54,068 bases of DNA from a virus: positions 1 to 54,068 of the IMG/VR virus record IMGVR_UViG_3300044825_001528. One strand, 5' to 3'. Positions 30,437-51,992 of the stretch are shown here, in pieces. Numbering within the stretch: position 1 is the first letter of the stretch; each line of letters starts with the position of its first letter. The translations under genes and the position numbers were made by a program. The notes under the pieces are model-generated. The model saw only the letters and a list, made by a program, of their open reading frames with translations. It did not search any database and had not been told where the DNA came from.

Positions 30437-31069
30437 ATGTCGCGATATCTACGAGAAAACTTGACTTTCGACCGCGCTAGTATGGTGGTCGAAAGCGTCA
30501 AGGAAGGAGAAATGAAGGCTCTATACATGAAGGGCATCTTCATTCAGGGTGGGGTAAAGAACGCCAATGAGCGTGTTTATCCCGTTTCCGAGATTGAGCG
30601 TGCTGTAGAAGATCTCAATACTCAAATCAGAGAAGGTCATAGTATTCTGGGCGAAGTAGATCATCCAGACGATCTTAAAATCAACTTGGATCGTGTCAGT
30701 CACATGATTAACAACATGTGGATGGATGGTCCAAATGGTTATGGAAAACTGAAAATATTACCGACTCCAATGGGCCAACTGGTATCTACTATGTTGGAAA
30801 GTGGAGTCAAACTAGGTGTGAGTAGTCGCGGAAGCGGTAACGTAGACGATACTACTGGCAAAGTAAGTGACTTTGAAATCGTCACAGTGGACATTGTAGC
30901 TCAACCAAGTGCCCCAAACGCTTATCCAAAAGCAATATACGAAGGACTAATGAACATGCGTCATGGTCATCGTGTATTGGATAATCTAAAAGGTGCTGGT
31001 TCAGATGCAAAGGTCCAAAAATTCTTGAAAGAAGAAGTAATTCGTCTTATCAAGGATTTGAAAATCTAA
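30437..31069 (+). CDS. gp21: Prohead core protease gp21
   Basis: 210-residue serine protease (T4 gp21 is 212 residues). It digests the scaffold core and trims gp23 and internal proteins during head maturation, cutting after [L/I]-x-E. The predicted catalytic His lies in ILGEVDHPDDL (about residue 75) and the catalytic Ser in KLGVSSRGSGNV (about residue 131). FEIVTVDIVAQPSAPNAYP is a further signature. The N-terminus MSRYLRENLTFDRASMVVES is the activation peptide expected for a self-processed protease. It lies between gp67-like and gp22, the order of T4. Confidence 0.93.
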   Translation: MSRYLRENLTFDRASMVVESVKEGEMKALYMKGIFIQGGVKNANERVYPVSEIERAVEDLNTQIREGHSILGEVDHPDDLKINLDRVSHMINNMWMDGPNGYGKLKILPTPMGQLVSTMLESGVKLGVSSRGSGNVDDTTGKVSDFEIVTVDIVAQPSAPNAYPKAIYEGLMNMRHGHRVLDNLKGAGSDAKVQKFLKEEVIRLIKDLKI

Positions 31070-33618: not shown

Positions 33619-34386
33619 ATGATATATACGTATATGGAAAATCACGCAATCTTCAACAATACAAAATACACTAGATGGTATTGGGCCATTATCAAAAAAC
33701 GAGCTATCAGTGATCATAAACTGCCTGGCGAAGTTCATCACATTATTCCTAGAAGTTTGGGCGGAACTGACGATAAGAGCAATTTGGTCAAACTAAGCGG
33801 ACATGATCACGCTTGGTGTCACTGGCTACTAACAAAAATGACTGACGGCGAGAATAGATCCAAGATGATCTACGCATTCAATATGATGGGTGTTTATGGG
33901 GAACACATGAGACGAACAAAATCATACGCTATTGTTAGAGCTTATGAAAGAAATCGCGACGAATGGAGAAAGATGCACAGCGAGAAAATGACTGATCGTG
34001 AGCCTTGGAATAAGGGCAAGAAGTTAGACGACGAGAAATATAAAAAGGCCGGCCGAAGCAACAAAGGCAGAGTACTATCTCCAGAAGTTGCGGAGGCTAA
34101 GCGTTTGCGACAGATTGGAAGAACTATGAGCGCGGAATCTAGTCAAAAGAAGCGTGACGCTATGATAGGTTTTGTTAGAGGTCCTATGAGCGAAGAAGAA
34201 AAACAGAAGAGAAGAATACCTCTAATAGGAAAGAAAAAGAAAGAGGGACACGCGGACAATGTTAGAAATGCAGTTTTGGGAAATATATCCATAAACAAAG
34301 ACGGAATAGAAAAGAAGATAAAAAAAGACGTTTTACAAGAATATCTTGACTCTGGGTGGCAATTGGGAGGAAGAAAGAGAAAATGA
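33619..34386 (+). CDS. HNH homing endonuclease with NUMOD3-type motifs
   Basis: 255-residue protein. Residues about 18-65 hold the HNH nuclease core: ARRWYWAII-like start (YTRWYWAIIKKR), GEVHHIIPRSLGGTDDKSNLV and LSGHDHAWCHWLLTKM. The second half is very basic and has several NUMOD3-like helix repeats (RVLSPEVAEAKRLRQIGRTMS, then SAESSQKKRDAMIG, MSEEEKQKRR), which bind DNA in phage homing enzymes. It has no late promoter or clear ribosome binding site and sits between two copies of the same terminator, which fits a mobile gene inserted after gp23. A second ATG at 33634 (MENHAIF) is equally possible as start. No intron was seen near it, so it is presumably free-standing. Confidence 0.85.
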   Translation: MIYTYMENHAIFNNTKYTRWYWAIIKKRAISDHKLPGEVHHIIPRSLGGTDDKSNLVKLSGHDHAWCHWLLTKMTDGENRSKMIYAFNMMGVYGEHMRRTKSYAIVRAYERNRDEWRKMHSEKMTDREPWNKGKKLDDEKYKKAGRSNKGRVLSPEVAEAKRLRQIGRTMSAESSQKKRDAMIGFVRGPMSEEEKQKRRIPLIGKKKKEGHADNVRNAVLGNISINKDGIEKKIKKDVLQEYLDSGWQLGGRKRK

Positions 34387-38000: not shown

Positions 38001-39096
38001 TGATAGCACTGGTGTCCCATTCGTAATGACCAACACTGCTCTAGGCGGTAACAGGCTACGATTGATAGGCACTGATCTAACCGCAGCGGGGAACGCAAGT
38101 GCTCTAGACATCACCAATGTAACCAATTGCTTCATCAACGATATCAACACAAGCAGCGCCAAGGTGGGTGGCAGTGCTTGGAAGATAGCTGATTCGGTAA
38201 TGACCATAGGAACCGTCCAACTAGTTGGAAGTGGAACTAACGGTCCCGCCAATCTGCTAGAGGTCACAGGCGCTACCAGCATAGTGTCTGTGGGCTATAG
38301 TAGCTTCACAAGCGGCACTACCAATGGCAACGGCATCTATATCGGTGCTGGTGCTCGTGTGATTGCTGGTGCCAACTTCTACAACATCCCGCTGGGCACT
38401 GGCTACAGCGTGACTGGTGCTGCTGGCGGCATCTATGTTCGCGGTGGCAATCAGGCTGTACCTGGTACTAACAATGGCGTGAACCCATTGTTGTCACTGT
38501 CAACATTCAATATGAACACGCATATCGCTGCTAGTGATATAGTTGGCGCTGTTGCTATTGCCAATGGAGGCACTGGGCAGACAAGTAAGACAGCAGCGTT
38601 CGACGCACTGGCTCCTACTACCACTGCTGGCGACTTGATCTACTACAACGGTACCGACAATGTTCGTCTACCCGCTGGCAGCAACAATCAAGTACTGTCT
38701 CTAAATGGTACTACTCCAACTTGGGTCAACGGCGTTAGGAAAACCACTGGTAGCTGGACAGTGACACCAGGGTCTAGCACATATAGCTTCAGTGTTCCAG
38801 ACAACAATACCTATACGATGTGGGTCAGAGGAAACATTCCCAATGGCATCATCGTGTGGAACGCTACCGTTTCGCTGTCCAATGCCAATGTTCCAGCGAT
38901 AGGCACGCAGTACGGTTGGTATTATCTAGCCGGAAATCAGTTAGTGCTAACATCAATGCCCGATCAGATAATAGGCACGGCAGGTAGCATTAGCACGGCA
39001 ACTGTAGCTACTACCACAGCAAACACCTTCACATTCGGCATAACAAACAACAGTGGGTCTAACTGTACCATTGAATATGGATACATAACACTATGA
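35047..39096 (+). CDS. Large composite tail fibre or virion structural protein
   Basis: 1349-residue protein. The N-terminus IINVGELPNDGSGDPLRLAF and INDNF is a recurrent attachment-type start of virion proteins in marine T4-like phages. Residues about 60-345 hold six or so beta-propeller repeats of about 40 residues, each with YVAVGDGGTI and S.DG..W (YCF48/BNR type). Three fibre motifs GGTGQTT or GGTGATT, each followed by AFxALAP, occur near residues 597, 815 and 1180. Between the last two, residues about 855-1150 begin EIYVSKGGNDSTADGSITKPF and show the turns of a right-handed beta-helix, as in pectate-lyase-like tailspikes. The C-terminal 130 residues are Thr/Ser-rich and may bind receptor. 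It likely binds or digests host surface glycans. The stop overlaps the next ATG (ATGA). Confidence 0.8.
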   Translation: MTQQIINVGELPNDGSGDPLRLAFQKINDNFTQVFTAPGAAGTDGSFQYRSLNSLTAAAYYDTLWVLGGITQWWTSVDAVTCEPLTTYTPTSAVKQIYAAATGFIAVGADSMLLTSGDGLIWTARSPADPSNFNGVAQYDGGRYVIVGDAGAIQTSLDAITWTSVVSGTSQHLNSVAVSSIGWVAVGDNGTIVFSSNGTTWVLVTPTGTSENLNSVVYDGSYYVAVGDGGTILRSADGTVWVPIVTTITENLTSVTTGVFDGDTIDVAVGDSGAIYTSTDFSTTWEQPLGYTRVASNLTSVCRYNNLFLAVGLNGTVLTSPDAVDWSNVTIAGVMVGSTQLTYNDLTEQLTVDSTTISITGNTDINTDSTKSLNIGYTDVSNVNVRSSTTINGRLRLPVYNANPNTAHSVGGDIFYNANTGFLEWFDSVSGLWKVVSDGNPDPSNTLINGNAVFTLESSGNTSVPGSMIPTVANSYDLGSVDSPWRSLYVSNNTIYIDSVPLSVSGNTLTVAGIPVITSDTTDPVITSNTVTSAGLVLTTNTGIQFSDNTVLTSTDSIGTVKSVDISGGNTGLTTADGPITSTGTITLEGTLNIEHGGTGQTTAQLAFDALAPTTNTGDIIYNDGSNNTRLPIGEDDQVLKVVGGVPSWANNQTANTGDVTFSTNVVQGTGYELGLSPGTGFTDDYQYFRVRGGDVPEHLHFDTTNSNAYDLYVGDDQKFFKLSKDGPAIIQSLDANTATGYTWTFGIDGKLTLPVDGDIVNSNGSSVLSVGTVTSIDISGGDTGLLTVGGPITSNGTITIGGTLNVANGGTGATTVAAAFTALAPSQANNAGKLLTTNGTTASWSSLGITNEIYVSKGGNDSTADGSITKPFLTISAAINYLNTNYPVANNSGTQFVIVVGPGLYSENVNINRLLTHLWAYEGKLKTTRISGTVTVTSAVDYQGIFQNVVSLNNLFIDNTTNNALEVTGSIPISIDINNCALYTDSTGVPFVMTNTALGGNRLRLIGTDLTAAGNASALDITNVTNCFINDINTSSAKVGGSAWKIADSVMTIGTVQLVGSGTNGPANLLEVTGATSIVSVGYSSFTSGTTNGNGIYIGAGARVIAGANFYNIPLGTGYSVTGAAGGIYVRGGNQAVPGTNNGVNPLLSLSTFNMNTHIAASDIVGAVAIANGGTGQTSKTAAFDALAPTTTAGDLIYYNGTDNVRLPAGSNNQVLSLNGTTPTWVNGVRKTTGSWTVTPGSSTYSFSVPDNNTYTMWVRGNIPNGIIVWNATVSLSNANVPAIGTQYGWYYLAGNQLVLTSMPDQIIGTAGSISTATVATTTANTFTFGITNNSGSNCTIEYGYITL

Positions 39097-39461
39097 GAGC
39101 ACGAGAGTTTATCAGTGAAGTAAAGAAAACCCAGATGCGTAAGGATCACGAGAACGCTACTACTGGTCGTCATACATTTACTGATGCTCCAGCCGATAGA
39201 TTTTATGTGCTGGGTAAAGTAATGAGTGCTGCTGCTTGTGCTAATGGTTACGATCCACTGAATGTCCCGGCAGAAACTTGGGTAGGAAAACGAAACACTG
39301 CTCATCCATACACAGATGTTGAAGACAAGATGATGAAGCAAGCATATAAAGCGGTAGGAGTCAAATGGAAGGATCACAATCACGGTGATTTACGCAGTAT
39401 GGAGCCAGAAAGCACCAATAGCACTAGTCCAATAAAGCCATTCAAGGGATACAAACGATGA
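39093..39461 (+). CDS. Small virion-type protein with capsid-targeting-like N-terminus
   Basis: 122-residue protein of unknown function. It starts MRAREFISEV, which closely resembles the T4 capsid-targeting peptide with a gp21 site after ISE. The centre is ADRFYVLGKVMSAAACANGY, then DVEDKMMKQAYKAVG. The C-terminus SPIKPFKGYKR is shared with the product of the gene ending at 41972. From memory, similar small proteins recur in environmental myoviruses, but I know no proven function. The ATG overlaps the fibre stop and its own stop overlaps the next start (both ATGA), so it is translated as part of one block. Confidence 0.75.
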   Translation: MRAREFISEVKKTQMRKDHENATTGRHTFTDAPADRFYVLGKVMSAAACANGYDPLNVPAETWVGKRNTAHPYTDVEDKMMKQAYKAVGVKWKDHNHGDLRSMEPESTNSTSPIKPFKGYKR

Positions 39462-40318
39462 AAATCACGGAGATACTCACTGAAGCTCCGATTACTGATT
39501 ATGTGCCCATTGGAGATTTCAGCAAGGACCTACAGTTTAGAGGACCAGATGTTAAGTTAGCGGTTCACCCAACTAACATCCAAAAGGCTCGTGATTTTTT
39601 CTCTAACTCACCCTACAACTTCAGATTCTTCGTTGTTAATAGTCCCAGAGTGCGACAGCATCGCGAAACTGGCGAAGCGAGTCCTGAAAAAATCCGCGAA
39701 ATATTTCCCAAACAGGCAGATGCTATACTCAAAAATCACGAGAATGCCATCACCGTGATATACATTGGTAACTACGGTCAAGACAAAGTGATGTTCACGC
39801 CGTGGACTATGGCACATAGAGTAGGTCACGCAATCGTGGCAAGTGGAAGATATGATGCGCGAAAATTCAATAACAGCGCCTGGTATAAGCTAGAACAAGA
39901 TTTTCTAGAGAGTATGGGTCTGATATTACAGAACTTCTATGGACTTCAACTTGAGCGTAGAGCATACGGGTCATATTCAGTGTGGGGTAAAAATCGTCAG
40001 CATTTCAACGCACTATTCAACAAAATAGGAACTCAACGCAGCAGTCGTGAAAATCAGATTACCAGACCCTATGAGTTCTTATACGAACTATTCGCGCAAT
40101 TCATTCAGACAGGTGATGTAAAGTTTAATCCACTGCCTATCACCGCATCTTACGGTCGCAAAGCTTGGGGCAGACCAACCAACTATATTGGTTTAAAACA
40201 GCAATATAGAACTCCTGAATTTGATAGAGAAGCTAACCTGAATAAAGTTCGCGAGCAACTAATTAGAAACTTTAATGCGGTATTACAGGACGCTATGGGT
40301 AAAATTTATCTGATGTAA
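39458..40318 (+). CDS. Uncharacterised protein with HxxxH motif and capsid-targeting-like N-terminus
   Basis: 286-residue protein. The start MKITEILTEA matches the capsid-targeting pattern with a possible cut after LTE. Residues about 114-127 read TPWTMAHRVGHAIV, a HRVGH in the place where zincin proteases have HExxH, and a later YEFLYELFAQF could supply the third ligand. The catalytic Glu is replaced by Arg, so it is either an atypical metal site or an inactive relative. The rest (WGKNRQHFNALFNKIG; RPTNYIGLKQQYRTPEF) gives no clear family. Packed in the cassette between the 39093 and 40323 genes, 4 bp before the latter. Function unknown. Confidence 0.7.
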   Translation: MKITEILTEAPITDYVPIGDFSKDLQFRGPDVKLAVHPTNIQKARDFFSNSPYNFRFFVVNSPRVRQHRETGEASPEKIREIFPKQADAILKNHENAITVIYIGNYGQDKVMFTPWTMAHRVGHAIVASGRYDARKFNNSAWYKLEQDFLESMGLILQNFYGLQLERRAYGSYSVWGKNRQHFNALFNKIGTQRSSRENQITRPYEFLYELFAQFIQTGDVKFNPLPITASYGRKAWGRPTNYIGLKQQYRTPEFDREANLNKVREQLIRNFNAVLQDAMGKIYLM

Positions 40319-40322
40319 TGCT

Positions 40323-41078
40323 ATGAGATATCGCGAACTAATCACTGATGCTAGAAAGAATAAAAACGATCCGAAATATCCATTTCACGCTGGATGGGAT
40401 GAGTTGAATAGAATTAAACACAGAGCCAAAATGGTGGGAGATGATTTAGCTGATACATATCAGTTATTCATACCTAAAACTAATCTAGCGGGAATGACCA
40501 GACGAGAAAGAAGATTATCCAATCTTGCCAACAGATATGCCTATGATGAACGGGGTAATTTGCGACCACGATATAAAGATTGGGAAGAGAAAGGGCCAAT
40601 TAGCGAAGCGATACCAATATTGCCGACTGGAAAACCTAATATAGAAGCAGGCGGTAATAAACCAGGTCGAGCATTTTGGACAAGCACTGCGTATAAACAG
40701 AATGGTAGTTGGACTAGCGAATGGAATGAATGGGTAAAGGGTAATATGTCGCACTGGTCTAGTCCCATTGGATATCTGTATCGTGTTCGACCAGGCGCGC
40801 TATTATTGCCGTTTGATAATACATACGATGCCGAAAATATTCAACACGCATTCGCTGATTTAGAAGTTGCCAAACATCCTGAATTTGGTGGATTCGGCTA
40901 CACTACTGATTTTCCTTGGAATCAGATAGTCAAGCATTTTGACGGAGTTCATCACTATAATAGCGGTCGCCGTTTTGATGATTTCACCTATGGCTGGGAT
41001 GTTGAAAGCACTGCGTGGTTTAACACCGACTTCTTACAATTTGCTGGCGAAGTTAAGGTAAATACTTCTAAAGATTGA
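40323..41078 (+). CDS. Uncharacterised Trp-rich protein with capsid-targeting-like N-terminus
   Basis: 251-residue protein. It begins MRYRELITDARK, again like a gp21-cleaved targeting peptide (cut after ITD). The C-terminal half is rich in Trp, Tyr and His: RAFWTSTAYKQNGSWTSEW, HWSSPIGYLYRVRPGALLLPFD, FDGVHHYNSGR and YGWDVESTAWFNTDF. FWTSTA and YRVRPG recall pieces of ADP-ribosyltransferase folds, but the order of the motifs does not fit the R-S-E class, so I do not assign that function. From memory, similar proteins occur in other environmental phages. It is followed by the next gene after 9 bp. Confidence 0.7.
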   Translation: MRYRELITDARKNKNDPKYPFHAGWDELNRIKHRAKMVGDDLADTYQLFIPKTNLAGMTRRERRLSNLANRYAYDERGNLRPRYKDWEEKGPISEAIPILPTGKPNIEAGGNKPGRAFWTSTAYKQNGSWTSEWNEWVKGNMSHWSSPIGYLYRVRPGALLLPFDNTYDAENIQHAFADLEVAKHPEFGGFGYTTDFPWNQIVKHFDGVHHYNSGRRFDDFTYGWDVESTAWFNTDFLQFAGEVKVNTSKD

Positions 41079-41087
41079 GAATATAAT

Positions 41088-41972
41088 ATGAGAGCCAGAC
41101 AACTACAAGAAGATACCACAACGCTAAAACAGATATACGGCGACGAATATCCCGATGATTATGAGCGTATTTGGCTATATGTGACCTTGCGTGACTTTAA
41201 TATTCCCTTTACAATATTCACTATTCGTCCGCGTGAATTAGAACAACGACTAATATCTCAATACAGAGTAGAGGATTTAGATGAATTAACTGATAAATTG
41301 AAACCAGAACAACGACAGATACTCAAGCGATATATTCGCGATCCTAGATTATCAGACAGTATTATCATCGTTCACAACGATATGATAATTGACGGTAATC
41401 ATCGTGCTTTTGCCGCCGCTCTAAAGGGAGTTCCCGTTAGAGCGATTGATTTGGCAGAAACTGACGCAGAGCAATTGGACGAGAAGTGGAGCAAGAGTTA
41501 TAAGCGTAGTATTGATTGTAATAATCCCAAAGGATTTAGTCAGCGCGCTCATTGCGCCGCTCGCAAAGCTCGTCAGACTGGCAAAAAGACCAAGAGTGCC
41601 AGCGTTAATGAGGGCAGAACAGGAACATTAGCACCAGATGTGGCACGAGCATTACCCGCGGTATATGCTCTACCAGAGTTGCTCAATCAGGATCCCTATC
41701 TACAATACAGATTTGGTGTTGCTATTGCTGGTGCTAAAGGAGCCAAAAAGAGAGCAGAAGACGGAGTTCCTGATTATGGTAAAGAAAGTGCTTGGGGAGA
41801 GAACGAGATTATCGTAAGCTTTGATCCCGACATAGAAACATACATAGATGATGCACTAAAAGCAATGGGTATGAGTGGAAAGAAACTTATAAGCACCAGA
41901 AAGAGCGAAGAGGCAGAGGATGTTTCCAAAAACAGTCCAATCAAGCCTTTCAAGGGTTATCGGCGTCGTTAA
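41088..41972 (+). CDS. ParB/sulfiredoxin-like domain protein with shared virion tail
   Basis: 294-residue protein. The N-terminus MRARQLQEDT is a degenerate capsid-targeting-like peptide. Residues about 90-121 (SIIIVHNDMIIDGNHRAFAA, then GVPVRAIDL) are the core of the ParB/sulfiredoxin fold, where DGNHR is the nucleotide-binding motif. A short Cys-containing module, CNNPKGFSQRAHCAARKAR, follows at about 144-162. A third module at about 195-275 includes LLNQDPYLQYRFGVAIAGA and GENEIIVSFDPDIETYIDDA. The end is SPIKPFKGYRRR, shared with the 39093 gene. ParB-like domains can be nucleases or CTPases, so a DNA-acting role is possible but unproven. Its stop codon shares the palindrome TTAA with the stop of the minus-strand gene that faces it. 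Confidence 0.72.
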   Translation: MRARQLQEDTTTLKQIYGDEYPDDYERIWLYVTLRDFNIPFTIFTIRPRELEQRLISQYRVEDLDELTDKLKPEQRQILKRYIRDPRLSDSIIIVHNDMIIDGNHRAFAAALKGVPVRAIDLAETDAEQLDEKWSKSYKRSIDCNNPKGFSQRAHCAARKARQTGKKTKSASVNEGRTGTLAPDVARALPAVYALPELLNQDPYLQYRFGVAIAGAKGAKKRAEDGVPDYGKESAWGENEIIVSFDPDIETYIDDALKAMGMSGKKLISTRKSEEAEDVSKNSPIKPFKGYRRR

Positions 41973-45338: not shown

Positions 45339-46379
45339 ATGCGTATATCTGAAATACTTAATGAAGTTGATCGTAGAGGGTTTTTGAAGAAATTAGCAGG
45401 AGGTGCTGCGGCTGGAGCGGCAGCAGTTGGTGCTCTAAAAGCACCCTGGGAAAAATTCTTCAAAGGTGACGAGGTATCAGATGATTATGGTAAAGAAGCA
45501 GAACCAGTAAATATTCCCAGACAGGCAATGCTAATCAATTTAGCTAGAAGACAAATGGAAAATCTGCGATCAATGAATATTATTAATTCGGCTACATTAC
45601 AGCAGTATTCAGAAAGAGCATTAATTAGAGCATTATTATCGGCTAAACCATATGCTTCAAATCAAGAAATAGCACAATTTTTGGCACAATGTAAGGGAGA
45701 AACTGGAGCTTTTACTAGTCTAGACGAGAGATTAGAATGGAAAACTCCCGAGAGAATGTTTAGGCATTTCACAAAGAAACTCAATCCAAATATCAAGAAT
45801 GTGGATAATATTAGTCCTGAAGAACGACAGATCGGTATGGAAAAAGCACAAGAGCTAATATCAAACCCAGAAGATTTTAAATCACCCTATCTTGCCAATT
45901 TCATCTATGCTAATGTCATTGGAAACGGCCCAGAAGATACTGGTGATGGTTGGAATTACAGAGGAAAAGGATTCTTGCATTTGACTGGAAAAGCTAATTA
46001 TAGAGATATTGGCGGAGAATCATTGGTTGCTAATCCAGATTTATTGCTTACTGATATGAATTGGGCGATATTTACAGCAGTTAATTATTGGCTAAAAAGA
46101 GTAGCGTCTAAATCTAATGATTGGGCAGATACAGCAAAAATTACTAAACTAGTTAATCCAAACACAGGTGCCGATGCAATAAGCAAAAGAGATCGTTATT
46201 TCAAAGAATATATGAAGATAATAGGTTCTGTTGCTGATGAAATAAGAAAAGAACTACACATTAGACAACCACATCTTCCAAAAAATCGTCCGCATCCAAG
46301 CACAGAACGCCCAACTCTTAAGACTCCTCCAAAGACTAAAACTAAAAAACCAGCTATTAAAAAGCCAACAAGGAAGTAG
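45339..46379 (+). CDS. GH19-type endolysin with capsid-targeting-like start and twin-arginine signal
   Basis: 346-residue protein. Residues 1-9 (MRISEILNE) match the capsid-targeting pattern. Residues 11-17 (DRRGFLK) followed by KLAGGAAAGAAAVGAL look like a twin-arginine export signal. The catalytic part resembles the predicted chitinase/lysozyme family GH19: AQCKGETGAFTSLDERLEW (about 117-135) with the general acid Glu, and GDGWNYRGKGFLHLTGKANYRD (here about 205-225, split across this description) as the substrate-groove motif. The C-terminal 70 residues are Pro/Lys-rich (THPSTERPTLKTPPKTKTKKP-like) and likely disordered. Normal GH19 endolysins have neither peptide at the N-terminus. It should cut peptidoglycan, either for lysis or after injection. 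Confidence 0.8.
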   Translation: MRISEILNEVDRRGFLKKLAGGAAAGAAAVGALKAPWEKFFKGDEVSDDYGKEAEPVNIPRQAMLINLARRQMENLRSMNIINSATLQQYSERALIRALLSAKPYASNQEIAQFLAQCKGETGAFTSLDERLEWKTPERMFRHFTKKLNPNIKNVDNISPEERQIGMEKAQELISNPEDFKSPYLANFIYANVIGNGPEDTGDGWNYRGKGFLHLTGKANYRDIGGESLVANPDLLLTDMNWAIFTAVNYWLKRVASKSNDWADTAKITKLVNPNTGADAISKRDRYFKEYMKIIGSVADEIRKELHIRQPHLPKNRPHPSTERPTLKTPPKTKTKKPAIKKPTRK

Positions 46380-47918: not shown

Positions 47919-49700
47919 ATGAAACAGTTAAAAGAGTTTGAAAACTGGACTGATAGCATAATCAAATCAACTGTATTTGAGAAGAAAGACACACGCGACG
48001 AGCGAGCCATTGAGCGTCAGCGTGATATAGTTTATAAAGCAAAGCAGGCATTTCCTGAGTATCCAGAATCTCAAGCTATTGAATTGTTCCTAGCCGATAA
48101 GCTATCTGACATTGAGCAGCGTGATTTTGAGCAGAACAAAGTCATCAATTTGCAGCGTAGAGAGAATGATAAACTTAAAGGTAATCTACAGGATCTACAA
48201 TCAGAGATTCAGAATATTGAAGCGGGCGGTCAGGAAACTGATCGAGAAATAGCAAGACTCAAACAATTGAGCGGTAAGCTTCAAACTGATGTAGAACAGC
48301 GTAGAGTTGGTGGTCGCGAAGTAAATGAACTATTAGCACAAGTTGAACAACTTAAAAACAAGCCTGGGGTTACTCCAGAACAATATAAAGACATCAAAGA
48401 TAAAGTAGAGGATTTTTCTAAACAAAAAGTCAATCCAGAAGAATTCAAAAAGTTTGAGAATCAACTGAAGACGCTTGCTGCTAGCGAAGCAATAGATAAA
48501 GAACAAATATCCAATTTACAATCAGCGATAGATTCTGTAACCAGAAGACAGGAAAAAATAGGCGATATCAGTGATGTTGCTGGCAAACTTCGTGATTTGG
48601 AGTCTAAACAAAGTGAAATTGAGCAAGTAGCAACTGCCAATAAAGAATTGGTTGGTGATTTAAATCAACGACTAGAAACTCTCGGTGCTGCTGATCGTGC
48701 TGATATTGAGCGTGCATCAGAATTGCTGCGAGATTTACAGGGGACTAAACAAGAGCTTGATGCTAAACAACAAGAACTGTCAGACTTCGAACGCAATCTA
48801 CAGACTCGTGTGGATAAAGAAATTGAACAAGAAAAAGCTACAACCAAGAAAAGAATGCAGGATTATTTTCGTCGTGCTAAAAAACGCAGCGCACAAGCAG
48901 CCACTAAAATCAATGCTCTTGTTGGAAAAGATGCTGGTATAGAAAAAATTCGCGAATTAGGTAGAACTATTACTGATCTTCAAAACAAAGATTTTGAAGA
49001 CATGACAATTTATCCTTCGATAGACGATATATCGTTAGAATTGAGTGGATTGGAAGGATGGCAAGAACTGACAGAGAGAAGAAGAAAGAGAATAGAAGCC
49101 GAAATAAAAAAATTGAAAAGCACTGTTGATTTTCTTCTTAAGAGATTAGTACAGCCGGATCTTCCTAATATTCCTTCTCCTGATCTTACATCGGAATTAG
49201 AACTTTCTCCTGAGCAAAAAAAAGAAAAGGATTATCAAGAATATGTACAACAAGCTAAAGATATAATGAAAAAAAATAACCTTGAACTTGATCTTAAAGA
49301 GGATGCATCTCAGTATGTAAATATAGAACCTGAATATTCAAAGATTATTGAATATTTAAAAGATAAATGGCTCAAATCATCAGATGGTTATCGCGAGACT
49401 GCTTTACTAGCCAATAAATTTCTTGATTTATCTTATCTTGATAGAATTATATATTATTATCTAAAAAAATCCAAAATCGATATTACTTCTATTAATAATG
49501 CCGACTTAGAAAAAGAATTTACTGAAATTTATCTTCCTTTAATCATAAAAAAAACAAATCAAAAAGCAAATCAAAAAGCAAATCAAAAAAAAGATTATTT
49601 GAATCAACCAACTAATCCGATAGACAAAGGATTATCAGAACTGGAAGAATCATTGGACAGAATCATAGGTAAAGATGTAGCAACTTGGATAAAACGATGA
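47919..49700 (+). CDS. Long coiled-coil virion protein
   Basis: 593-residue protein, mainly coiled coil from about residue 60 to 320 (KLKGNLQDLQSEIQNIEAGG; REIARLKQLSGKLQTDVEQR; ELDAKQQELSDFERNLQ), then a mixed helical part, ending with the triple repeat NQKANQKANQKK near residue 545-556 and DRIIGKDVATWIKR. The start MKQLKEFENWTDSIIKS is a distant variant of the targeting-like N-termini nearby. Without an enzymatic motif the function stays open; it may be an internal head or core protein. AAGGAAGT precedes the ATG. The stop overlaps the ClpS-like start (ATGA). Confidence 0.65.
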   Translation: MKQLKEFENWTDSIIKSTVFEKKDTRDERAIERQRDIVYKAKQAFPEYPESQAIELFLADKLSDIEQRDFEQNKVINLQRRENDKLKGNLQDLQSEIQNIEAGGQETDREIARLKQLSGKLQTDVEQRRVGGREVNELLAQVEQLKNKPGVTPEQYKDIKDKVEDFSKQKVNPEEFKKFENQLKTLAASEAIDKEQISNLQSAIDSVTRRQEKIGDISDVAGKLRDLESKQSEIEQVATANKELVGDLNQRLETLGAADRADIERASELLRDLQGTKQELDAKQQELSDFERNLQTRVDKEIEQEKATTKKRMQDYFRRAKKRSAQAATKINALVGKDAGIEKIRELGRTITDLQNKDFEDMTIYPSIDDISLELSGLEGWQELTERRRKRIEAEIKKLKSTVDFLLKRLVQPDLPNIPSPDLTSELELSPEQKKEKDYQEYVQQAKDIMKKNNLELDLKEDASQYVNIEPEYSKIIEYLKDKWLKSSDGYRETALLANKFLDLSYLDRIIYYYLKKSKIDITSINNADLEKEFTEIYLPLIIKKTNQKANQKANQKKDYLNQPTNPIDKGLSELEESLDRIIGKDVATWIKR

Positions 49701-50095
49701 AGATCAAACATATCATAAGAGAAAACACTGTGCTTGATCGTAAGCCAACAGTGAAGCCAGAGGAAATAGAACTCAATGAACCAGGCGGGTTCAATATAGT
49801 AATCCTGAATGATAATGTGACTCCATATCAGGTGGTAGTAGAGGCTATTATGCATGCAGTAGGACTTTCTGAACACGAAGCATTCAGTAGAATGATGCAG
49901 GCACATCAAATAGGATGGGGAGTAATTGCAACCTATGCCAGCAGAGATATTGCTGAAACTGTAGCCAACAAACTAGAGCAGCATGCTCGTGCCAATACTA
50001 ACTGGGATCATTATAGACCAATGATACCTCCACGCGGTTACTACAGACCCTGGCCACTAACAGCAGAAGTTATGGAGGCTGGTGATGCGTCTTGA
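49697..50095 (+). CDS. clpS: ClpS-like N-degron adaptor with capsid-targeting-like N-terminus
   Basis: 132-residue protein. Residues about 32-100 match ClpS, the adaptor that delivers N-end-rule substrates to the ClpAP/ClpCP protease: FNIVILNDNVTPYQVVVEAI, then LSEHEAFSRMMQAHQIGWG and RDIAETVANKLEQHA. In E. coli ClpS the residues D35, D36 and H66 hold the substrate N-terminus and M40 shapes the pocket; by alignment these are D39, N40, H70 and Y44 here, so one acidic contact and the specificity residue are changed. The N-terminus MKIKHIIRENTV fits the targeting peptide with a cut after IRE. The ATG at 49697 overlaps the previous stop. The last 25 residues (NWDHYRPMIPPRGYYRPWP) are extra. It may redirect host proteolysis during infection. 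Confidence 0.85.
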   Translation: MKIKHIIRENTVLDRKPTVKPEEIELNEPGGFNIVILNDNVTPYQVVVEAIMHAVGLSEHEAFSRMMQAHQIGWGVIATYASRDIAETVANKLEQHARANTNWDHYRPMIPPRGYYRPWPLTAEVMEAGDAS

Positions 50096-51992
50096 TGAGT
50101 TTGTGAACAGAAGATTCAGCAATACTCTATTAGAAGCCAAAGGTCATCTAGATCATCCTGAGGATCTGGTCTTTATTGGCGGTCGTGATGGTATGTTGCG
50201 AGCTATTCAGGCTATACAGCAAACAGCACAAACACCCAAGAACATTACCATAAAGTGGGACGGTTATCCAGCACTGATATTTGGTCGTGGGCCTGATGGT
50301 AAGTTCACGATTATGGACAAGCATATGTTCAACAAACAGGACAGTGCTGTTCGCCAATTGCATAGTCCGGAAGAATGGATGAGATATGAAAGTGCTCGCG
50401 GAGACAAGCAACGCACTGGTCTAATGAACATAATCAACAATATTTGGACAGGATTAGAAGCAGCAAGCACCAAGCCTGGATATTATTGGGGAGATCTATT
50501 GTTCAGCAGTCCTCTACAGGAACAAAACGGACTCTATAGATTCAGAGCCAATCCAAATGGTATTACTTATACAGTTGATGTTGATAGTCCAATTGGGCGA
50601 TTATTATCAAACAAAGTAGCTGGAATAGCAGTGCATCAGTATCTAGATCCAAATGCTATGTCTACTGACGAGGCCAAATCATTGGATGGCACAGTAGGGA
50701 ATCTAAAAAATGCAGGCAATGTTGCTATAGTTCCCAGTGCCATGCCGCAAACTCCTAGAGTAGTTATACCACAGGCTATGTTTACGCGAGCACAAGAATT
50801 GGTCAATAGATATGCCGACGATATAGATAAGTTCTTCAACAATGCTCCACAGGCCAAAAGTGCCTTTACTGGATTATTCACTACCTATATCAATAACAAG
50901 ATAGTCAGTGGAGATCTCAAGAACTTGGTCGCAGACTTCTATCGTTGGGTAGATAGTAGACCAATGACCGAGCGTATGCGTGCTAAAATCAACGAGTATC
51001 TAAAGAATAATCGCAGTGCTATCGTTGCCATATTCACAGTATGGGCAGCAATCTACAACTTGAAAAACAGTGTGGTCAAACAGTTGGACAGAGCAAGCAG
51101 AACCAGTCCAGTCAAGGGGTATCTACAAAGTGGCACACAAAGTCAAGAAGGATTCGTAAGTCAGGGATTGAAGTTTGTCAACAGATTAGGATTTGCTCGT
51201 CAGAATCTTGCCGTCAAACAACAGCAGCCACTATCAGAAGCCATTGATAACAAGCAAGTATTGATCATCTATCCAGGAGGATTTCATCCATTTCATCTTG
51301 GACATGCCAGTGTGTTTGATCACTTGGCCAAAAAGTTTCCTGATGGTGAAGTATTCGTAGCAGCAACCGATACTAAAACAGAACGCCCATTTGGATTTGA
51401 TGACAAGAAGTTCTTGGCCAATCAGAGTGGCGTTCCGAATGACAGATTTGTGCAGGTCAAAAGTCCCTATCGTAGTGAAGAGATAACCAAAAACTATGAT
51501 CCAAATAATACGATACTAGTGTTTGCAGTCAGTGAAAAGGATCGTGACAGAATCGGATTCAAGCCAAAAGCAGATGGATCTCCAAGCTACTTTCAGCCAT
51601 ACAAGGATGATGTTAGTGCCCCAATGAAGCAACACGGATACATCTATGTGGTTCCAAAGATTGATTTTGAGATTGGTGGCAAAGTGATTGACAGCGCCAG
51701 CAAGATTAGACAGATGTATCAGAATGCTGATGATAGCAAACGCAAGCAAATCATAGCTGATCTGTATCCACTTGGTCGTGCTCCAAAACGCATCAAGAGC
51801 ATATTGGATTCGGTACTGGGCCATTCCACATCATCAGATGTCAAAGAAGCCGATAATCCAAACTATTTTGGTGCCAGCAGTATGAGTCCTATTCCAGGCA
51901 CTCCACAAAGTCTACAGCCACAACCAACCATCAAAAAGAAAGCTCGTGAACGCGCCGAACAGGCAGCACTGCAACGCTTTATGGGTCACTAA
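50085..51992 (+). CDS. Two-domain nucleotidyltransferase-like protein (KxDG plus HxGH)
   Basis: 635-residue protein. Residues about 20-150 start with LDHPEDLVFIGGRDG and contain ITIKWDGYPALIFGRGPDGK with K57-W-D-G60, which looks like motif I of the covalent nucleotidyltransferase (DNA/RNA ligase) fold. Residues about 390-570 are a second nucleotidyltransferase of the HxGH class: IIYPGGFHPFHLGHASVFDHL (H404-L-G-H407) and DSASKIRQMY, the counterpart of the ISSTxIR motif of NMN/cytidylyl-transferases. The start MRLDEFVNRRF resembles the cassette N-termini. GGAGG 7 bp before the ATG at 50085 decides the start over a GTG one codon earlier; the gene overlaps ClpS by 11 bp. Substrates are unknown; NAD metabolism or RNA/DNA end modification are possible. 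Confidence 0.72.
   Translation: MRLDEFVNRRFSNTLLEAKGHLDHPEDLVFIGGRDGMLRAIQAIQQTAQTPKNITIKWDGYPALIFGRGPDGKFTIMDKHMFNKQDSAVRQLHSPEEWMRYESARGDKQRTGLMNIINNIWTGLEAASTKPGYYWGDLLFSSPLQEQNGLYRFRANPNGITYTVDVDSPIGRLLSNKVAGIAVHQYLDPNAMSTDEAKSLDGTVGNLKNAGNVAIVPSAMPQTPRVVIPQAMFTRAQELVNRYADDIDKFFNNAPQAKSAFTGLFTTYINNKIVSGDLKNLVADFYRWVDSRPMTERMRAKINEYLKNNRSAIVAIFTVWAAIYNLKNSVVKQLDRASRTSPVKGYLQSGTQSQEGFVSQGLKFVNRLGFARQNLAVKQQQPLSEAIDNKQVLIIYPGGFHPFHLGHASVFDHLAKKFPDGEVFVAATDTKTERPFGFDDKKFLANQSGVPNDRFVQVKSPYRSEEITKNYDPNNTILVFAVSEKDRDRIGFKPKADGSPSYFQPYKDDVSAPMKQHGYIYVVPKIDFEIGGKVIDSASKIRQMYQNADDSKRKQIIADLYPLGRAPKRIKSILDSVLGHSTSSDVKEADNPNYFGASSMSPIPGTPQSLQPQPTIKKKARERAEQAALQRFMGH

Follow-up and report, generated by a model that had tools for sequence, protein, structure and literature searches.

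Closest described systems

In the Caulobacter ClpS complex, the equivalents of E. coli N34, D36 and H66 contact the alpha-amino group of the N-degron; the gatekeeper M40 keeps out beta-branched residues, and the K84 position bonds to E23 of ClpA (PMC12493166). D36 and E41 lie beside the pocket and make acidic residues at P2–P5 unfavourable (PMC12258705), and the N-terminal extension of E. coli ClpS (residues 2–26) enters the ClpA channel (PMC9663308). Leptospira ClpS1 binds ClpA with a Kd of 0.44 uM and lowers its ATPase activity (PMC12493166). ClpS is also known from phages, where it has been proposed to feed host ClpAP (PMC7824862, PMC6102473). In the open-licence literature searched, phage ClpS is listed in surveys of jumbo phages, without a dedicated study.

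Phage T4 provides the other point of comparison. The 10-residue targeting sequence (CTS) of IPIII brings foreign proteins into the T4 core, after which it is removed (PMC10229621), and gp21 cuts off the T4 targeting sequence (PMC9958956). According to the sequence records, IPII and IPIII both begin MKTYQEFIAEA, with the cut at MKTYQEFIAE/A (here and below, a slash marks a cut).

The DNA analysed here, referred to as the window, is the whole of a 54,068-base IMG/VR virus fragment, record IMGVR_UViG_3300044825_001528. Our reading of one of its genes, with a probability of about 0.5, is that it encodes a virion-packaged, injected ClpS paralogue that would dock on host ClpA or ClpC with altered substrate choice.

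Genomic context of the tagged ClpS gene

The head genes of the window are T4-like (portal, S77 prohead protease, major head protein and terminase); a late sigma factor and proteins resembling gp46/gp47 and gp32 are also encoded. Because its major head protein is closest to those of the jumbo phages Phosso, Vibrio 2.275.O and PA5oct (63–66%), the source is probably also a jumbo phage, with the window as part of its genome. An HNH-type homing endonuclease (33619–34386) directly follows the major head protein gene.

The tagged ClpS gene is on the plus strand at 49697–50095 (stop included), has an ATG start and encodes 132 amino acids. A TTG 12 bases upstream would prepend MDKT; the ATG is preferred because relatives begin at the same M(K/R/N). 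The upstream gene (47919–49700, plus strand) encodes 593 amino acids with no family match, and its ATGA overlap with the ClpS start makes a common transcript probable. The downstream gene (50085–51992, plus strand) overlaps the ClpS stop, belongs to DUF6267 (PF19782, E 9.9e-41) and has a tag-like start, MRLDEFVNRRFSNTLLE/A. It also has a weak cytidylyltransferase match (PF01467), below the cut-off; in cyanophage matches to this ORF, the hypothetical and the cytidyltransferase are often separate genes. The T4 late promoter TATAAATA was considered and set aside, with no copy near the tagged ClpS gene and no excess across the window.

Family membership and fold

The earlier note on this DNA had described a clear ClpS core at 49697–50095, and both profile and structure bear this out. 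The protein scores 58.4 bits against PF02617 (E 6e-16, cut-off 23), and its AlphaFold2 model superposes on Caulobacter ClpS (3dnj) over 80 residues with Z 13.8 and an rmsd of 1.1 A. It also matches PHROG 27368 (phrog_27368), labelled 'ATP-dependent protease', which is the PHROG of phage ClpS. The profile check that the note had proposed thus places the protein inside the ClpS family.

In the model the core has a pLDDT of 92–97, and residues 1–31 are disordered with low pLDDT. Alignment and model place the core at residues 32–101 (49790–49999, plus strand), where N38, D39, T42, P43 and H70 correspond to the kept E. coli residues N34, D35, T38, P39 and H66. The predicted removal of nine N-terminal residues would leave a 22-residue extension (residues 10–31, NTVLDRKPTVKPEEIELNEPGG; 49724–49789, plus strand), disordered in the model, with a motif conserved among relatives – V(I/L)DRPPV..E(V/I)PL..PGG – and a length that fits reaching the ClpA pore. 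Before the last strand there is an insert, NTxYDHYR..GPW, specific to the relatives described below (50000–50050, plus strand; alignment and model), within which the model has an extra short helix at residues 104–109.

A viral clade of tagged ClpS

The earlier note had also suggested a profile search for similar phage ClpS. Scans of viral contigs yielded 12 further sequences, 48–57% identical to the window protein, for a clade of 13; the others scored 39.8–54.3 bits against PF02617. The clade profile picked out no member in 84,980 prokaryote genomes. In a tree built from ClpS cores, the 13 sequences group together as a single clade (support 100/99) on a long stem of 1.83, apart from the untagged ClpS of jumbo and other phages, with an attachment point that is not fixed because only 78 columns were usable.

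The best 'phage' match of the first search, Acinetobacter phage MD-2021a, was rejected – the sequence is bacterial DNA with argC-clpS-clpA and aroF, and the record represents bacterial contamination in a phage collection. GAP32, Kaldavass and CBB encode a 177-residue ClpS-like protein in which most residues of the pocket differ and the K84 position is Phe; this may be a second diverged phage type in which N-degron binding has possibly been lost.

The N-degron pocket and the ClpA-contact surface

The clade shares with bacterial ClpS (E. coli, Caulobacter; PF02617) the fold, N34/D35/T38/P39/H66, the hydrophobic pocket core, the extension and E82. It differs in that position 36 is free, M40 is replaced in 11 of 13 members, E79 has become Asp and K84 has become Val or Ile, and in its insert of about 17 residues before the last strand and its head-targeting-like start.

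Alignment of the window protein with E. coli ClpS confirmed the two substitutions named in the earlier note: the equivalent of D36 (Caulobacter D49) is Asn (residue 40; 49814–49816, plus strand), and that of the gatekeeper M40 is Tyr (residue 44; 49826–49828, plus strand). At the ClpA contact K84 the window protein has Val (residue 89; 49961–49963, plus strand). E41 is Gln, so that both pocket-flanking acids are gone, E79 is Asp, and E82 is kept. E. coli ClpS and ClpA served as the reference for these positions; the ClpS letters used are 94% identical to Trabulsiella, as expected for Enterobacteriaceae.

N34, D35, T38, P39, H66 and V43 are invariant in the aligned clade. Position 36 is free to vary, with Pro in four members, Gly in four, Asp in three and Asn and Ala in one each. 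Position 40 is Ala in six, Phe in four, Met in two and Tyr in one, and the six with Ala are natural counterparts of the laboratory M40A/M53A mutant. The K84 position is Val in seven and Ile in six, with Lys in none. Asp at the E79 position is a mark shared by the clade, and is also found in 34 of 69 bacterial ClpS.

Those 69 sequences, all from Pseudomonadota (one interrupted match was left out), are nearly uniform at the other three positions – D36 in all 69, M40 in 61 (Arg in the remaining eight), and K84 in 67, with Lys or Arg in all – and the changes at D36, M40 and K84 are therefore real departures. Of 22 phage ClpS outside the clade, just 9 have Asp at position 36 and 8 have Asn; the absence of D36 therefore does not exclude membership of the family. 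The untagged ClpS of jumbo phages (PA5oct, Phosso, Atu_ph07, phrog_27368) are likewise phage-encoded, often together with a phage ClpA. In contrast to the tagged clade, they have no tag, and M40 is kept in 13 of 22 untagged sequences and K84 in 18 of 22.

The earlier note had attributed altered specificity to both pocket residues. The change at the rim stands as a class feature (Tyr, Phe or Ala at position 40 in 11 of 13); D36N is not the diagnostic change, because it is common in phage ClpS and Asp is still present in three clade members. As judged from these alignments, D36N is ordinary among phage ClpS; the tag and the paralogy are the new part.

Three described cellular proteins also have a replaced gatekeeper. 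In Agrobacterium ClpS2, the best PDB sequence match of the window protein, and in Arabidopsis ClpS1, M40 is replaced as in the tagged clade, but by Arg; they have no tag or insert, and every bacterial sequence sampled, those with the Arg gate included, has Lys or Arg at K84. Leptospira ClpS1, compared by its reported residues only, has Tyr at M40 and Val at K84 as in the window protein, is the second ClpS of its genome and binds ClpA (PMC12493166). It differs in having Asp for His66 and in being cellular, with no packaging tag reported.

With regard to the ClpA-binding surface assumed in the earlier note, it appears to be changed (E79 to Asp, K84 to Val) rather than lost (E82 is kept). Because K84 is lost in every clade member, affinity for ClpA may be low. 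A matching change in phage ClpA was considered and rejected: the ClpA-like proteins of two jumbo-phage records that also encode a tagged ClpS keep the His-Glu...Glu-His motif at the E23/E28 positions, so that no compensation for the loss is seen.

Since Leptospira ClpS1, with Tyr and Val, binds and inhibits ClpA, adaptor and blocker modes are both possible, and a pure ClpA blocker is the main rival to our reading. Such a protein would be injected, would occupy the N-domain and pore of ClpA or ClpC, and would stop the degradation of SsrA-tagged or incoming phage proteins, with N-degron delivery secondary or lost. Ordinary ClpS already steers ClpAP off SsrA clients, and Leptospira ClpS1 cuts ClpA ATPase by 57% and slows degradation of an SsrA substrate (PMC12493166). 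The free variation of D36 and M40 in the clade, with the extension conserved, would also suit a blocker. The rest of the pocket would not: N34, H66, T38, V43 and the pocket floor hardly vary, if at all, across the 13 sequences, a constancy for which a pure blocker has no use, and loss of K84 would be expected to weaken one. A blocker is rather unlikely, and the invariant pocket anchors favour a working adaptor.

The putative N-terminal tag

The window protein begins with a putative tag, MKIKHIIRE (residues 1–9; 49697–49723, plus strand), for which the clade motif and the likeness to T4 predict a cut after E9 (IRE/N). The residue after the cut (P1') is Asn, compared to Ala in T4 IPII and IPIII. 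The pattern [LIVF].E[AGSN], with the E at residues 8–12, is found near the start of 12 of the 13 clade members, with differing letters and spacing (for example, MKIREIIKE/A, MRIQELVE/A, MNDIRRFIDIVE/A and MKIKPLKEYIRE/A). Among 24 other phage ClpS, only two show it within the first 20 residues. When the clade starts were shuffled, a mean of 1.06 had the motif, and 12 was never reached in 5000 trials. The exception in the clade (L064:2715–3089) has no cleavage site and a short extension (MKLENLVIDKKPDT...), possibly reflecting a loss of packaging.

Similar starts occur on unrelated genes. Seven of the 38 window genes have tag-like starts, compared to none of 250 internal Met. In G004, a 328-kb record with a clade member, the figures are 19 of 402 genes and 3 of 1381 internal Met, and the tagged proteins include 5'-nucleotidase-like, endonuclease VII-like and weakly PARP-like ones. 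Four consecutive window genes (39093–41972, plus strand) have the N-termini MRAREFISE/V, MKITEILTE/A, MRYRELITD/A and MRARQLQED. PA5oct offers a partial and indirect outside check: tag-like starts are found on gp333 and gp279, annotated as structural with an ESI-MS/MS note, and on gp213 and gp075, which carry no mass-spectrometry note.

Between 80 and 100 kb in G004, unrelated proteins with MRIxELL-like starts, among them nucleotidase-like and endonuclease VII-like ones and others of unknown function, surround the tagged ClpS; this cluster is possibly a bank of injected effectors. A further tagged protein of the window (45339–46379, plus strand; start MRISEILNE/V) is GH19/endolysin-like, matching phrog_181 (E 1.5e-31), with PF00182 just below the cut-off. 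Its N-terminus, MRISEILNEVDRRGFLKKLAGGAAAGAAAVGAL, combines a tag-like start with a twin-arginine-like signal behind it, and the protein could be a hydrolase that is injected and then exported through the host Tat pathway. In the five phage sequences scanned, this combination did not recur.

The candidate processing enzyme is the S77 prohead protease at 30437–31069 (plus strand; PF03420, 96.6 bits; phrog_207, E 1.9e-60). Its own start, MSRYLRE/N, has the same RE/N site as the tagged ClpS, and an S77 protease is also encoded in G004 and in three other records (G002, G011 and G012).

The tagged proteins have in common with T4 IPI–III and Alt a start of about 10 residues (M-K-x-x-x-hydrophobic-x-E, then a cut before a small residue), an S77 protease, and a spread over several unrelated proteins. 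The T4 cargo proteins are not protease adaptors, and packaging, proven in T4, is what we infer for the tagged ClpS. The earlier note's targeting-like N-terminus accordingly gains weight from the clade, the unrelated tagged genes and the protease, as a likely cleavable head-targeting tag.

The cleavage motif alone was dropped as a packaging signal, as it shows no excess at gene starts relative to positions further inside proteins. In a looser pattern, the combined tag is enriched roughly 2- to 10-fold at gene starts. For this reason packaging is argued from the complete tag, from its occurrence on unrelated genes and from its retention across the clade.

That lack of enrichment, the member with no site, and the fact that ClpS is common in jumbo phages (PMC7824862, PMC6102473) would all agree with an ordinary intracellular ClpS, never packaged, whose start is a coincidence and which acts like the untagged phage proteins. 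This is unlikely, given that a site 8–12 residues from the start is kept in the clade despite diverging letters and that the full tag occurs on unrelated neighbours far above the internal-Met rate. Such a protein would also duplicate work that, in two records, a separate untagged ClpS could do.

Two types of ClpS in one phage

These two jumbo-phage records are G004, where the tagged ClpS is near 86.9 kb and the canonical, untagged one (NDDYTPM, K84) near 163 kb, and the 362-kb record G012, in which tagged and canonical ClpS are also both present. The pairing is seen in these jumbo-phage records; the window phage is known from its 54-kb fragment. G004 and G012 each also encode a ClpA-like protein (L263 in G004, L262 in G012) that has a Clp_N domain, the two Walker A motifs, pore loops in D1 and D2, and a ClpP loop of the IGF/VGF type. 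ClpA-like unfoldases are also found in PA5oct, CBB, Vibrio 2.275.O and Atu_ph07. The earlier note had included neither the second ClpS nor the phage ClpA, nor the change of K84 to Val/Ile or the C-terminal insert, and its account is extended in these respects.

A tentative proposal, more doubtful than not, is that jumbo phages have split ClpS between two copies: an expressed ordinary adaptor able to partner the phage ClpA, and a second paralogue, carried in the virion and with its gate redesigned, that after injection would turn the host Clp protease towards new N-termini, perhaps those of host defence proteins, in the first minutes of infection.

Proposed mechanism

Late genes surround the tagged ClpS gene in the window and at loci L002, L061 and L063, where it adjoins tail-sheath or head genes. 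In L065 it is between gp47-like and gp46-like genes, and in L008 it is among tagged effector-like genes. A helper that acts only inside the prohead, for instance by holding protease-made N-termini or clearing core peptides, would suit the late position and the many new N-termini created by prohead cleavage, but is very improbable, as the N-termini predicted to arise (A, N, V, S, G) do not belong to the classical bacterial N-degrons, the gene position is not fixed, and the ClpA-type extension is retained.

If the tagged protein is instead a packaged and injected adaptor, it would be made late, alongside the head genes, and the tag would draw it into the prohead core, where the phage S77 protease would cut after IRE. 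The mature form – on sequence and model, and given the cut, the 22-residue extension plus the ClpS core – would stay in the head and enter the host with the DNA. Conservation suggests that it would then use its third helix to dock on the N-domain of host ClpA (or ClpC), with the extension threaded into the unfoldase pore as with ordinary ClpS. The choice of first or second residue in the N-degron proteins delivered would differ from the usual one and probably be wider, because the N34/H66 anchors and the pocket core are kept and positions 40 and 36 and the ClpA face are remodelled. ClpAP would simultaneously be diverted from its usual clients before phage gene expression. The ordinary ClpS and ClpA-like unfoldase of the two jumbo relatives fit a division of labour in which the injected copy would act early and the expressed ordinary copy later.

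Implications

In a limited search of the open-licence literature, no report was found of a tagged, paralogous, gate-altered ClpS, or of a virion-packaged protease adaptor. If the reading is true, the phage delivers a substrate selector for host ClpAP/ClpCP with its DNA, ahead of its own gene expression. The clade also represents 13 natural pocket variants for work on N-degron specificity, and the shared tag would offer a simple route to listing possible injected effectors of jumbo phages whose heads are of the T4 type.
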